Source: Leeia oryzae DSM 17879
GTDB lineage: Bacteria > Pseudomonadota > Gammaproteobacteria > Burkholderiales > Leeiaceae
Direction: 5' to 3'
Assembly (NCBI RefSeq): GCF_000376945.1
Contig: NZ_AQXU01000012.1
Coordinates: 1-64,000 of the forward strand
DNA: 64,000 nucleotides
Positions 51,594-55,998 of the stretch are shown piece after piece. The position numbers and the translations under genes are program-made. The notes under the pieces are model-generated. The model was not told the DNA's origin. It made no database searches and saw nothing but the letters and a program-made list of their open reading frames with translations. Numbering within the stretch: position 1 is the first letter of the stretch; each line of letters starts with the position of its first letter.

Positions 51594-52571
51594 TCAATCT
51601 TTGATTGAATCTAGCAAATTAACAACACTTTTTGCGGTTAGCGCAATCGAATCAGCTGTCAGCCAGCAGGTAAAACGCGTTGCGGATACTTGTTTCAGCC
51701 TGCTGACATAAATACTGGATTTGCCAATCACATCAATTGGCGTCATATAACCGCCGGCTTTGGCTTCATCAATTCGTTTCAATGACGCATGAGCATCAAT
51801 CAGGTCCGTCAGCTTGGTATTGGCATCAACAGGATAACAAAGATCAATCACTAACTTGATTGCCGTTCCATAAAATACCGGTACTTGAACGGCTGTAGCT
51901 GAAAGCGCCATTTCGCTACCATCAGAATGTTGCTGAATATCTGCCAGCAAGCCAGCCTCAAGCTGCGTATCACCTTCATCATTAAACAACCCGACCTGGG
52001 GAATGGCATTAAACGCAGCACGCACAGGAAATGCAGCAATTTCTATGTCCTGGTTATTAAACAAGCCAATGGTTTGCTGCGCCAGTTCTTCCACCCCAGC
52101 TCGCCCCCTGGCAGCTGCAGGTTGCAGTAAAGTTGCATCCACGGCAGCAATACCATGTTCTTCTTCAAACACTTGCAACAACGGTTTAAGAATTGCAAAC
52201 GCGGGTGTCACAAACCTGACCTCTTGGGCATCTTCCGGCCACTCACATCCTGGCATCATGGAGTCGCCATTAGACAGCTGTGATACACGTACAATCTTGT
52301 TGCCTTTGGCGACGGCACGAGGGATAAACCGATCTGCAACAATATCCGGCACAGCAAAAATCGAAATATCCACTTGCGAGAAGTCAAAATCATCCAGCGT
52401 TCTGACTGATAAGTCCCGCCCCTGAAAGTGCAAAGTTTCTCCAAACGACTCAGCGGATGCAACTGCAAATACCTCATCAAACTCAAGAGTCGAGTCTGCC
52501 AGCGCATCCAGCACAGACTCACCGACCACACCAGTTGCACCAACTACCGCAAGAGAAGCTTTTTTATTCAT
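51594..52571 (-). CDS. usg: USG-1 family protein (aspartate semialdehyde dehydrogenase paralogue)
   Basis: This 325-residue protein has the aspartate semialdehyde dehydrogenase fold and an N-terminal VVGATGVVGESVLDAL nucleotide motif. The catalytic Cys position reads VDATLLQPAAARGRAG with no Cys, so it should not be a dehydrogenase. Usg proteins have this defect and unknown function. It lies between asd and fimV, as in other proteobacteria. Confidence 0.9.
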   Translation of the reverse strand: MNKKASLAVVGATGVVGESVLDALADSTLEFDEVFAVASAESFGETLHFQGRDLSVRTLDDFDFSQVDISIFAVPDIVADRFIPRAVAKGNKIVRVSQLSNGDSMMPGCEWPEDAQEVRFVTPAFAILKPLLQVFEEEHGIAAVDATLLQPAAARGRAGVEELAQQTIGLFNNQDIEIAAFPVRAAFNAIPQVGLFNDEGDTQLEAGLLADIQQHSDGSEMALSATAVQVPVFYGTAIKLVIDLCYPVDANTKLTDLIDAHASLKRIDEAKAGGYMTPIDVIGKSSIYVSRLKQVSATRFTCWLTADSIALTAKSVVNLLDSIKD

Positions 52572-52722: not shown

Positions 52723-53826
52723 TTATTTATCCAGCAGAATTCTCAGCATCCGGCGCAGTGGTTCTGCTGCGCCCCACAGCAGCTGATCACCAATCACAAA
52801 TGCAGACAAATACTCTGGCCCCATGTTCAATTTACGAACACGGCCAACCCCTACTTGCAATCCACCTGTAATGGAAGCTGGGGTCAGTTCTTGCTCTGTA
52901 ATACTGCGATCATTTGGAACCCACTTCACCCATTGATTACCGGATTTGATAATGGATTCAATCTCGCTCAGTGGCAAATCCTTCTTCAGCTTGATCGTCA
53001 GTGCCAAGCTATGGCAGCGCATTGCACCAATACGCACACACAAACCGTCCACTGGGACAATTTGCTCATTACCCAGAATCTTGTTAACTTCCGCCTGACC
53101 TTTCCATTCTTCCTTGGACTGACCATTATCAAGCTGTTTGTCGATCCATGGAATCAGGCCGCCGGCCAGTGGGGCAGGGAAAAATTCGCGAGGTACATCT
53201 TCACGAATGGTTTTAGCAACTTTGCGATCAATTTCCAGAATGGCAGATGATGGGGTTGCCAGTTCTTCAGCAACTGCAGAATGGATAACGCCCATCCCTT
53301 TCAGCAGTTCACGCATGTGGTTTGCACCGCCACCTGAGGCTGCTTGATAAGTCATGGAACTGACCCAGTCAACCAGACCTTCACGGAACAAAGCCCCAAC
53401 GCCCATCAACATGATGGAATTTGTACAGTTGCCACCGATAAAGTTTTTGATGCCTTTTGTCAGGCCATCCTTGATTACGTTCAGGTTGACCGGGTCAAGA
53501 ATAATCAGGCTATCTTCATCCATCCGCAACGTAGATGCCGCATCAATCCAGTAGCCTGTCCAGCCTGCAGCACGCAACTGTGGAAAAATCTCGGTGGTAT
53601 AGTCACCACCCTGGCAGGAAATGATGGCGTCCATACCTTTCAAGGCATCGATCGAACGTGCATCCTGCAAGACTGGTACAGTCTTGCCCACATCTGGAGC
53701 CTGCCCGCCAACATTACTGGTCGTGAAGAAAACCGGATCAATCAAGGCAAAATCCTGTTCTTCGCGCATGCGCTGCATCAGAACAGAACCAACCATACCA
53801 CGCCAACCTACAAAACCAACTCGCAT
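52723..53826 (-). CDS. asd: Aspartate-semialdehyde dehydrogenase
   Basis: This 367-residue NADPH-dependent enzyme makes aspartate semialdehyde, the branch point to lysine/diaminopimelate, threonine, isoleucine and methionine. It has the nucleotide motif [10 protein letters not shown], the catalytic Cys134 in [10 protein letters not shown] and the Gram-negative-type insert. The ATG at 53826 has AGGGGAAAGCA upstream. It is preceded by a structured leader that may control it. Confidence 0.97.
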
Positions 53827-53851
53827 TGCTTTCCCCTACATTGTCAGTGTC

Positions 53852-53887
53852 GCCCCGCTTTTCTGGCCCCTACCGCTTGCGGGGCCA
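53852..53887 (-). promoter_or_regulatory. Competing hairpins just upstream of asd
   Basis: On the minus strand, segment A (53879-53887) can pair with B (53864-53870, TGGCCCC with GGGGCCA). It can pair instead with C (53852-53858, GCCCCGC with GCGGGGC), which lies 26 bases before the asd start. The two pairings exclude each other. GTAGGGG, the asd ribosome site, is also present as a second copy inside B. This is the layout of a conformational switch, but regulation is inferred. Confidence 0.35.
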
Positions 53888-53906
53888 AGACGGAAGGTGC
53901 ATGACT

Positions 53907-54047
53907 TTAAACCAAGACGGTGGTCTTGGTTTTCTTGGTAATAATGGTGGTGGAAAGCACTGTCACGGCGACTACAGACGCAACAATGCCTGCCTTGTGG
54001 GCATGCTTGCGTAGCAGTTTGGCCAATGTGACAGGTAGTCGGTTCAT
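53907..54047 (-). CDS. Candidate leader peptide or small membrane protein upstream of asd (46 aa)
   Basis: A 46-codon ORF in the leuB-asd gap starts MNRLPVTLAKLL. It has a hydrophobic stretch at 20-36 flanked by basic residues, and it ends TTIITKKTKTTVLV. Thr and Lys make up 14 of 46 residues, mostly in the last 14 codons. Such a terminal run resembles the leader peptides of threonine and other amino-acid operons, and asd feeds Thr, Lys and Ile. Against this, only a weak GGAAA lies 16 bases upstream, and 46 codons is long for a leader. A hairpin (53909-53918 with 53923-53932, 10 base pairs) overlaps the last codons and the stop. The other reading is a small membrane protein. Confidence 0.35.
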   Translation of the reverse strand: MNRLPVTLAKLLRKHAHKAGIVASVVAVTVLSTTIITKKTKTTVLV

Positions 54048-54125
54048 CGCGTTAATCGTGCTTTCCGTATTTGATGGGATCAAGAGGATAAATCTATGAT
54101 TTTCCTGATAATAACCTAAAACTTC

Positions 54126-55187
54126 TTAGAGTGCAGCCAAAACTGCATCCCCCATTTGGGTTGTAGATACCTTATTGGTGCCCGGCTCGAAAATATCTCC
54201 GGTACGATACCCTTGTGCCAATACTTTCTTGACTGCGTTTTCAATCCGGAGCGCATGCTCTTCCAGACCAAAGCTGTAACGAAGCATCATGGCCGCAGAC
54301 AGGATGGTCGCCAGCGGGTTGGCCATGTCTTTACCGGCAATATCCGGTGCAGAGCCATGGCAAGGCTCATACAAACCCTTGTTGTTTTCGTCCAGAGAAG
54401 CAGACGGCAGCATACCGATAGATCCGGTCAGCATGGAAGCCTCATCCGACAAAATGTCACCAAACATGTTGCCCGTCACCATCACATCAAACTGCTTCGG
54501 ATTACGTACCAATTGCATGGCGGCGTTATCCACCAGCATATGGCTCAATTCGATGTCCTGATAGTCTTTATGAACCTCAGTGACCACGTCACGCCATAGC
54601 TGGGTAGACTCCAGTACGTTCATCTTGTCGACTGAACATACTTTGCGATTGCGACGACGCGCTGTTTCGAAAGCCACTTTGGCAATACGGCGAATTTCTG
54701 ACTCACTGTAAACCATGGTGTTGTAACCAACACGTTCACCACCACGCATCTCGATACCACGAGGCTCACCGAAGTAAATGTCACCCACCAGCTCGCGGAT
54801 GATAATGATATCCAGACCTGAAACCACTTCTGGTTTCAGGGTGGATGCATTGGCCAGTTCAGGGTAAAGAATGGCCGGTCGCAAGTTTGCAAAGACACCC
54901 AGTTGCTTGCGAATACCCAACAGGCCGCGCTCCGGACGTTGCTCGCGCGGCAGTGAGTCCCATTTTGGGCCACCTACTGCGCCAAGCAAAATTGCATCAG
55001 CAGCTTGCGCCAGCTTTTGTGTTGCTTCCGGATAAGGCGTCCCGGTTTCATCCACTGCACCACCGCCCAGCAGAGCGTATTCAAACTCCATCTTTAAACC
55101 ATCTGCGCGCAATACTTCCAGCACCCGCATGGCCTGTGCAATGATTTCCGGACCGATGCCATCACCTGGCAATACACAAATCTTCAT
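54126..55187 (-). CDS. leuB: 3-isopropylmalate dehydrogenase
   Basis: This 353-residue enzyme oxidises and decarboxylates 3-isopropylmalate in leucine synthesis. It has GDGIGPEI at the N terminus, the catalytic region YFGEPRG and [12 protein letters not shown], and [27 protein letters not shown]. It is the last leu gene, 44 bases after leuD. Confidence 0.97.
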
Positions 55188-55231
55188 TCTTTATGACCCA
55201 TCAAAATGCGTAATTAATAAACTTGAATCGT

Positions 55232-55870
55232 TCAGGCAAACAACCAAGGCTGCTGTTGGCGGCGCTGATCTTCAAATGCCTTGATCTTGTCTGCATGTGC
55301 CAGTGTCAGGCCGATTTCATCCAGCCCATTAAGCATGCAATGCTTGCGATGCTCTGTAATGTCAAAAGCGTACGATTGACCATCTGGTGTTGAAACCGTC
55401 TGAGCCGCCAGATCAATCATCAGCTTATAGCCCTCGTTACCCGCAGTTGCTGCAAACAGTTTGTCCACTACTTCGGCTGGCAACACGATTGGCAACACGC
55501 CATTTTTGTAACAGTTGTTGAAGAAAATGTCTGCAAAGCTTGGTGCAATCACCGCCCTGAAACCGTAATCCTCCAGCGCCCAAGGTGCATGCTCCCTGCT
55601 GGAGCCGCAGCCAAAGTTCTCCCGTGCCAACAGAACCTGTGCACCTTTGTAACGAGGGAAATTCAGAACAAACTCAGGATTCAACGGACGAACTGAGTTG
55701 TCCATTCCGGGCTCGCCATGATCCAGATAACGCCACTCATCAAACAGGTTCGGGCCAAAACCGGAACGCTTGATTGATTTCAGAAACTGCTTAGGAATAA
55801 TGGCGTCTGTATCTACGTTTGCACGATCCAGCGGGCAAACCAAACCATTCAGTGTCGTAAACGCTTGCAT
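55232..55870 (-). CDS. leuD: 3-isopropylmalate dehydratase small subunit
   Basis: This 212-residue partner of LeuC interconverts 2- and 3-isopropylmalate. It has [17 protein letters not shown] near the start and [13 protein letters not shown] near 80. The ATG overlaps the entericidin-like gene's stop by one base (TAATG), so it is probably translated by re-initiation. Confidence 0.97.
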
Positions 55871-55998
55871 TAACTTGCTGCTTTCTGGATGGCCTCGCCA
55901 CCCTTCTGAATATCCTTACCAACACCTTTGACGGTATTACAAGCAGAAAGGGTGAAACCCAAAGCCAATACCATCAGGCATTTCAATACTGTGCTCAT
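55870..55998 (-). CDS. Entericidin A/B family lipoprotein
   Basis: This 42-residue lipoprotein starts [15 protein letters not shown] and has a lipobox LSAC with Cys20 as first mature residue. The mature peptide is about 23 residues ([22 protein letters not shown]), matching entericidins. An excellent AAAGGAG ribosome site precedes the ATG. It lies between leuC and leuD, with its stop overlapping leuD by one base. Entericidins can act as a toxin/antidote-like pair in enteric bacteria. Here there is a single gene, probably with an envelope role. Confidence 0.88.

Follow-up and report, generated by a model that had tools for sequence, protein, structure and literature searches.

A putative Thr/Ile/Lys leader peptide upstream of asd in Leeia oryzae and similar leader tails in two further Burkholderiales families

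The window, by which we mean the whole analysed stretch of 64,000 nucleotides of Leeia oryzae DSM 17879 (contig NZ_AQXU01000012.1, positions 1 to 64,000), carries the gene for aspartate-semialdehyde dehydrogenase, asd, on the minus strand at 52723-53826 (TIGR01745, E 1.6e-206). asd is a branch-point gene for lysine, cell-wall diaminopimelate, threonine, methionine and isoleucine, and it is the presumed controlled gene in what follows. Its ribosome-binding site and ATG (GTAGGGGAAAGCAATG; 53824-53839, minus) were recognized from the sequence. The upstream neighbour on the same strand (54126-55187) matches PF00180 (Iso_dh) and was named leuB from gene order and sequence. A gap of about 300 bases had been described between the two genes; measured between leuB stop and asd ATG, it is 299 nt. 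This gap houses the ORF of 46 codons and a TAA stop that the original prediction placed here, running on the minus strand from 54047 to 53907 (translation MNRLPVTLAKLLRKHAHKAGIVASVVAVTVLSTTIITKKTKTTVLV). An alternative in-frame TTG at 54083 would give an ORF of 58 aa. Two further features were observed on the minus strand in the neighbourhood. A second ORF at 51594-52571, between asd and a FimV-like gene, resembles, by eye, an Asd-family paralogue (MNKKASLAVVGATGVVGESVLDAL...), and a 42-aa entericidin-like lipoprotein (PF08085, E 3.1e-10) is encoded at 55870-55998, between leuD and leuC.

The ORF tail reads TTIITKKTKTTVLV, and its putative control codon run, TTIITKKTKTT (53919-53951, minus), consists of Thr, Ile and Lys codons only. 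For scoring, we took the 12 codons preceding any stop at 40-180 nt upstream of asd and added their Thr count to their Thr/Ile/Lys count. This score was designed post hoc, after the finding had been seen. The window tail scores 13. Dinucleotide shuffling of the leuB-asd gap never reached this value in 5000 rounds, so that the claimed run at the ORF end is above chance; a score of 9 was reached by 144 of 5000 such shuffles.

Conservation in close relatives had been proposed as a check, and the ORF and its Thr/Ile/Lys run were indeed kept in both other genomes of the genus, G002 and G001, the only two that were available to this comparison besides the window. G002 has an ORF of equal length (MNYSFVAITASRKHAHKAGIVASAGRATVLSITTIITKKTKTIILV), and G001 a shorter one (MSSVRLINSKQQPGKLTPAGRIASIKRTTTIITKTVMKG). 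Relative to the window, G002 carries four synonymous changes across its last 15 codons including the stop, among them TAA to TGA, along with two replacements, T to I and V to I; its leader N-terminus is unlike that of the window. The G001 leader has an unrelated N-terminus and its own Shine-Dalgarno-like AGGA, yet RTTTIITKTVMKG stands ahead of its stop. A protein search with the window ORF matched G002 (E 3.2e-9) and did not recover G001. As a separate observation, a block of 33 nt within the ORF (53979-54011, minus; the RKHAHKAGIVA region) is identical in the window and G002 and is flanked by diverged leader sequence. The codon run gives no explanation for this block, which is predicted to fold into a hairpin. 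We considered a mobile or repeated element and rejected it, as the block is present in a single copy in its own genome with up to three mismatches allowed.

To place the run in a wider context, 190 loci of the order were scored upstream of asd, plus 80 named loci (the best 80 of a longer list). A locus was tallied as positive at a score of 9 or more, a criterion that was shifted several times during sequence inspection. Thr/Ile/Lys leader tails were found in 3/3 scored loci of the window's family (f1), in 42 of the 53 from a Comamonadaceae-like family (f49) and in 15 of the 36 from a Burkholderiaceae-like family (f31). These two labels rest on the match, by eye, of some of their sequences to Comamonas and Ralstonia loci. 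By the same criterion the run is missing in 11/53 and 21/36 loci of these two families, respectively, and it was found in none of 98 loci from 30 other families. The leader stops of positive loci lie 69-163 nt upstream of asd. Among the best 80 named loci, 24 passed, including three Ralstonia loci (two in one genome), records deposited as Comamonas, Paenacidovorax, Acidovorax, Giesbergeria, Macromonas, Malikia, Melaminivora, Tepidicella, Tepidimonas and Xylophilus, and bins with broad or doubtful names; the leader tail is missing in Macromonas bipunctata (L086).

Several decisions enter these tallies. One of the 24 named loci that passed, a Chromobacterium locus (L061, score 10), is isolated, was taken as chance and was dropped by judgement, as were L040 and L080, which pass a lower threshold only. 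L192 (f22) was flagged under a looser rule only and was taken for a leuB end. L116-L119 share genomes with L229, L232, L239 and L243 and were counted once, and seven loci could not be scored (L137, L171, L194, L197, L268, L275, L279). The asd starts in the 581-base stretches were located by a loose motif and some may be wrong; in L222 the start is misplaced and the locus was counted as negative, and L199 is also doubtful.

The 720 tail codons comprise 251 Thr, 126 Ile and 124 Lys codons; in the Asd proteins of the same loci Thr, Ile and Lys account for 4.7, 5.7 and 5.3%. The order of residues varies from tail to tail and the composition stays (TTTKIITKKTIS, TKTITTKTIIKR, RAITTKTTTIKG, IITKKTKTTVLV), as expected if the supply of codons is sensed. 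The final residues are rather constant inside a family (IKG, IKR, ITG), which would suit a nascent-chain arrest peptide with a tail ...IKG-stop that senses a ligand and not codon supply. However, such a peptide would not be expected to keep its composition and lose its order, and the final Gly-stop (GGCTGA) of the Comamonadaceae-like leaders may, we infer, also be fixed by an RNA hairpin. We regard an arrest peptide as very improbable.

How the leader is translated appears to differ among the families. A -10-like box lies 5-10 nt before an in-frame ATG in 52 of 59 distinct free-standing leaders, that is in 52/56 from the Burkholderiaceae-like and Comamonadaceae-like families (e.g., TACAAT, TAGAAT, TATATT, TAGACT) and in none of the three from the window's genus. 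Wherever an in-frame ATG had a box, we assigned the leader start to it, a choice that favours the box, and the other ATGs served as control: none of the 43 remaining in-frame ATGs has a box, and among upstream ATGs in all frames 77/1297 do, the 52 leaders included. Transcripts of these two families probably start at or very near the leader ATG and would then be leaderless, an inference drawn from the box alone. Leaderless mRNAs have been reported, as far as the accessible parts of these papers go, from Burkholderia cenocepacia (PMC4603805) and Cupriavidus metallidurans (PMC7563307), and a leaderless leader ORF, trpL, from S. meliloti (PMC7298713). In 18 distinct Comamonadaceae-like loci there is no free-standing leader and the run forms the C-terminal tail of LeuB, as judged by a LeuB-like motif before it (e.g., ...MGDAVVAAITGKTITKS-stop); here the structural gene itself would be the leader. 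L214 was tallied as free-standing, though by eye it is fused to LeuB. No such fusion occurs in the window's genus. Two more loci of the Comamonadaceae-like family, L277 and L278, keep a sequence like the post-stop hairpin, and their LeuB tail lacks most of the Thr/Ile/Lys run; they are perhaps decaying elements.

The main alternative in the original prediction was a small, basic-flanked membrane protein, and we weighed it as a basic, hydrophobic protein with no part in the control of asd. By eye, the ORFs of the window and G002 do have a hydrophobic middle, and so do the Ralstonia leaders. However, G001 and most leaders of the two larger families have, again by eye, neither this N-terminus nor a hydrophobic stretch, and the run is part of LeuB in the fused loci. 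Searches with six leaders (window, G002, G001, L085, L225, L050) revealed no Pfam or NCBIfam family at cut-off: NCBIfam gave nothing at E up to 1, and Pfam gave three matches far below cut-off, all with G002, the best being P-loop_SecA (E 0.071). Leader N-termini differ among the groups while the codon run and its place recur, which makes a membrane protein unlikely. With its N-terminal part not conserved, this alternative is disfavoured, and we give it the least credence of all explanations considered, hardly any. Conservation of the run and its position together with divergence of the remainder is a general trait of amino-acid leaders, as is a short ORF with a run of end-product codons upstream of a biosynthetic gene, and both are met here.

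We then turned to RNA structure. The RNA of the window's leuB-asd gap is strongly structured (z -4.2; 0 of 100 shuffles equally stable). At the leader end, a hairpin on the minus strand at 53909-53932 (AAACCAAGAC-CACC-GTCTTGGTTT) covers the last Lys/Thr codons and touches the stop. It is a perfect 10-bp inverted repeat (53909-53918 / 53923-53932), and TKTTVLV is encoded within it, so that these codons may be doubly constrained. The stem is kept in G002 with an altered loop and is absent in G001. Between leader and asd (53852-53887, minus) two mutually exclusive hairpins, TGGCCCC/GGGGCCA and GCCCCGC/GCGGGGC, are predicted, with counterparts in both relatives. A segment inside the leader, CAGTGCTTTCCACCAC (53947-53962, minus), is complementary to both the ribosome site and the start codon of asd (I2, 81%) and is a candidate sequestrator. 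Its part GTGCTTTCC (53952-53960) has two alternative partners, the asd ribosome site and, before the leader ATG, GGAAAGCAC (54058-54066, minus; within I1). The counterpart in G002, AGAAAGCAC / GTGCTTTCT, contains one compensatory pair by eye. Pairing of the leader with the asd ribosome site gave p 0.038 in the window, 0.58 in G002 and 0.40 in G001. In-leader sequestration is unsupported as a feature of the window's family, the best pairing in the two relatives lying elsewhere and not being significant, and binding of the post-stop segment to the asd start was no better than shuffles in this family. The competitor for the asd ribosome site in the window's genus may lie in the leader (GTGCTTTCC); the mechanism there remains unresolved.

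In the Comamonadaceae-like loci, the post-stop segment GGTTCGTCGTGCGCCC can pair with the downstream GACGAGCC. In an alignment of 41 sequences, the arm CCGGTTCGTC/GACGAGCCGG is paired in 97.3% of cells versus 22-49% when slid. This alignment (A4) was made without ten loci that have an extra A in the arm (L083, L085, L087, L088, L089, L103, L110, L202, L220, L263), nine with no standard arm or a longer spacer (L082, L199, L210, L216, L217, L256, L258, L261, L274), two duplicates and nine rows lacking a lead. Counting the arm with a bulge allowed gave 40 distinct rows. One arm pair is compensated (CG 28, UG 8, UA 4, other 1); in shuffles, the four doubly changed cells were reached in 1/500 and a single compensated pair in 383/500. 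Alternatively, TTCGTC of the same arm can form pairs with ATGAGC at the asd start (90.7% of cells versus 22-53% when slid). None of these pairs is compensated, and three of the six are invariant because they involve the ATG itself. A second pairing with the asd start is possible (GCGCCC with AGGGCG). The predicted duplex of post-stop segment and asd start has a mean of -17.2 kcal/mol over 40 loci versus -13.4 when shuffled, with 15/40 loci in the lowest 5% of their own shuffles; with partners swapped in from other loci it is nearly as strong (-16.5). The arm GACGAGCCGGG also has a second local partner, CCCGGC, in 89.0% of cells, and RNAalifold on 34 of these sequences returned this local CCCGGC hairpin and another helix, and neither the proposed arm pairing nor the sequestrator.

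For the Burkholderiaceae-like family, RNAalifold on 15 sequences predicted, unprompted, pairing of CGTCGTGCCC with both the ribosome site and the ATG of asd. This sequestrator is paired in 93.3% of cells versus 22-47% when slid, and no significant covariation was detected for it in the 15 sequences; the covariation term of the whole consensus is slightly unfavourable (+0.43). The hairpins of this family contain four compensated pairs (0/500 shuffles), three of which stem from one divergent sequence, L253. The simple duplex test was not above shuffles here. Overall, mutually exclusive downstream partners are conserved in both larger families with slight compensation, and the window's family offers three sequences only. 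These comparative data, with their little covariation, suggest translational control in the two larger families and say nothing about the window's genus.

These structures also bear on two other routes from leader to asd. In transcriptional attenuation of the E. coli thr type, stalling would settle whether an antiterminator or an intrinsic terminator forms ahead of asd, and some Comamonadaceae-like loci (e.g., L090, L094, L103, L257) do have a hairpin and U-run before the asd ribosome site. However, this combination occurs in only 13 of 58 distinct loci of that family (22%) versus 144/1160 shuffles (12%), which argues against classical termination as a general device, and scanning 53700-54300 for patterns gave no terminator-like site for the minus strand. 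We hold this route to be unlikely, without dismissing it. Slightly less probable again, in our judgement, is a Rho-dependent or mRNA-stability effect, in which leader translation would protect the RNA and the hairpins would be barriers to degradation or Rho. The stable hairpins without U-tracts in the window's family and the Burkholderiaceae-like family are compatible with it; on its own, however, it does not predict that sequences able to pair with the asd start codon are conserved in the two larger families.

In our preferred reading the ORF specifies a leader peptide: its translation would register how much Thr, Ile and Lys, end products of the asd pathway, is available and would thereby control asd. 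We put the probability of this reading at roughly three in four, with expression and regulation being inferred. The run is kept in the genus, and runs of the same kind stand at the same place in two further families, so the original prediction of a leader peptide gains support; expression and a starvation response remain inferences. A working model can be put forward from the pairings of the Comamonadaceae-like loci. Under replete conditions charged tRNA would be ample, and the ribosome would clear the run and sit at the leader stop, where it would mask the first arm's outer portion and block the local post-stop hairpin. Without this hairpin the post-stop RNA would be free to bind the ribosome site and start codon of asd at a later point, and asd expression would be low. 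When Thr, Ile or Lys is scarce, the ribosome would stall in the run, the local hairpin would form first and the asd start would stay open. Expression, stalling, the direction of control and the same logic in the window's genus are all inferred.

The history of the leader was compared with that of Asd on a tree of 88 Asd proteins (midpoint-rooted for drawing only). Leader-bearing loci fall into far-apart clades within each of the two larger families, and G001 is separate from the window and G002. The leader label needs 11 changes on this tree versus 29.6 for shuffled labels. By eye, leader types track family and not Asd type. This suggests that the leader remained in place and the Asd behind it was exchanged. 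Alternatives are an ancient duplication followed by loss, or leaders that were gained and lost repeatedly. Within a single family, leaders of one kind precede Asd proteins from very different clades in L205, L206, L025, L033, L224, L229, L007 and L005. A covariance model of the Burkholderiaceae-like leaders reached G002 only at E 0.16, beside the leader-less L034 at 0.33, and at E up to 10 it did not match the window, G001 or any of 11 Comamonadaceae-like loci. Homology between these leaders and those of the window's family could not be established in this way, and common descent of the leaders of all three families is consequently not shown.

Taken at its widest, the reading becomes a translational attenuator for asd that is widespread in Burkholderiales and senses three end products (Thr, Ile, Lys) through a single run, usually in a leaderless leader. 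In many Comamonadaceae-like genomes the run would be built onto the LeuB C-terminus, making the last codons of a structural enzyme the sensor, and the element would be stable at its locus while distant versions of Asd took over behind it. This composite claim is tentative, and we see its chances as almost evenly balanced, leaning marginally against. If true, a single tiny ORF that senses several end products would set the asd branch point across a large bacterial group. The LeuB-fused form would illustrate how an upstream gene can absorb a leader or give rise to one, and a leader retained in front of different Asd proteins would be a natural test of which part is selected.

Known RNA families did not account for the element. 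Rfam searches of the window region 53000-55300 at E up to 1 gave only a sub-threshold match, snoZ40, which lies inside leuB, is below gathering and was taken as chance; 14 asd loci searched at gathering gave no family. Threonine operon leader families of Rfam and Pfam did not match the window region, the 14 loci or the six leaders. The term 'asd' is absent from the main text of PMC2965389, PMC4603805 and PMC7563307, as far as the accessible portions of these papers extend. The original remark that no asd leader peptide is known in this group agrees with the open literature, in which none appeared among the matches listed; subscription papers, including a proteobacterial attenuator survey of 2004, are outside this scope. 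On our best reading, the Thr/Ile/Lys leader of asd is widespread and apparently undescribed.

Among known systems, thrL of E. coli is a Thr/Ile attenuator with a short ORF before thrABC and overlapping alternative hairpins. The asd leader resembles it in its short ORF, its run with Thr and Ile codons, its aspartate-pathway gene and its overlapping alternative hairpins. Unlike thrL, it precedes asd and not thrABC, adds Lys codons, has no consistent intrinsic terminator, has an asd start codon that can be paired in two families and finds no match in Rfam. The Rfam asd RNA motif of streptococci lies upstream of asd, and we know of no leader ORF in it; it shares the place before asd with our element and matched neither the window region nor the 14 asd loci. 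In rph-pyrE attenuation of E. coli, the end of the upstream structural gene is the leader and nucleotide supply is sensed. The LeuB-fused loci likewise use the end of an upstream structural gene as leader, with the difference that an amino-acid codon run is appended to LeuB. Finally, judged from the accessible part of the report on S. meliloti trpL (PMC7298713), that leader serves Trp and transcription attenuation, in contrast to the Thr/Ile/Lys run of the asd leader; the two are alike in a leader-ORF RNA that begins at the ATG, which for asd is inferred from the -10-like box in the Burkholderiaceae-like and Comamonadaceae-like families and does not extend to the genus of the window.
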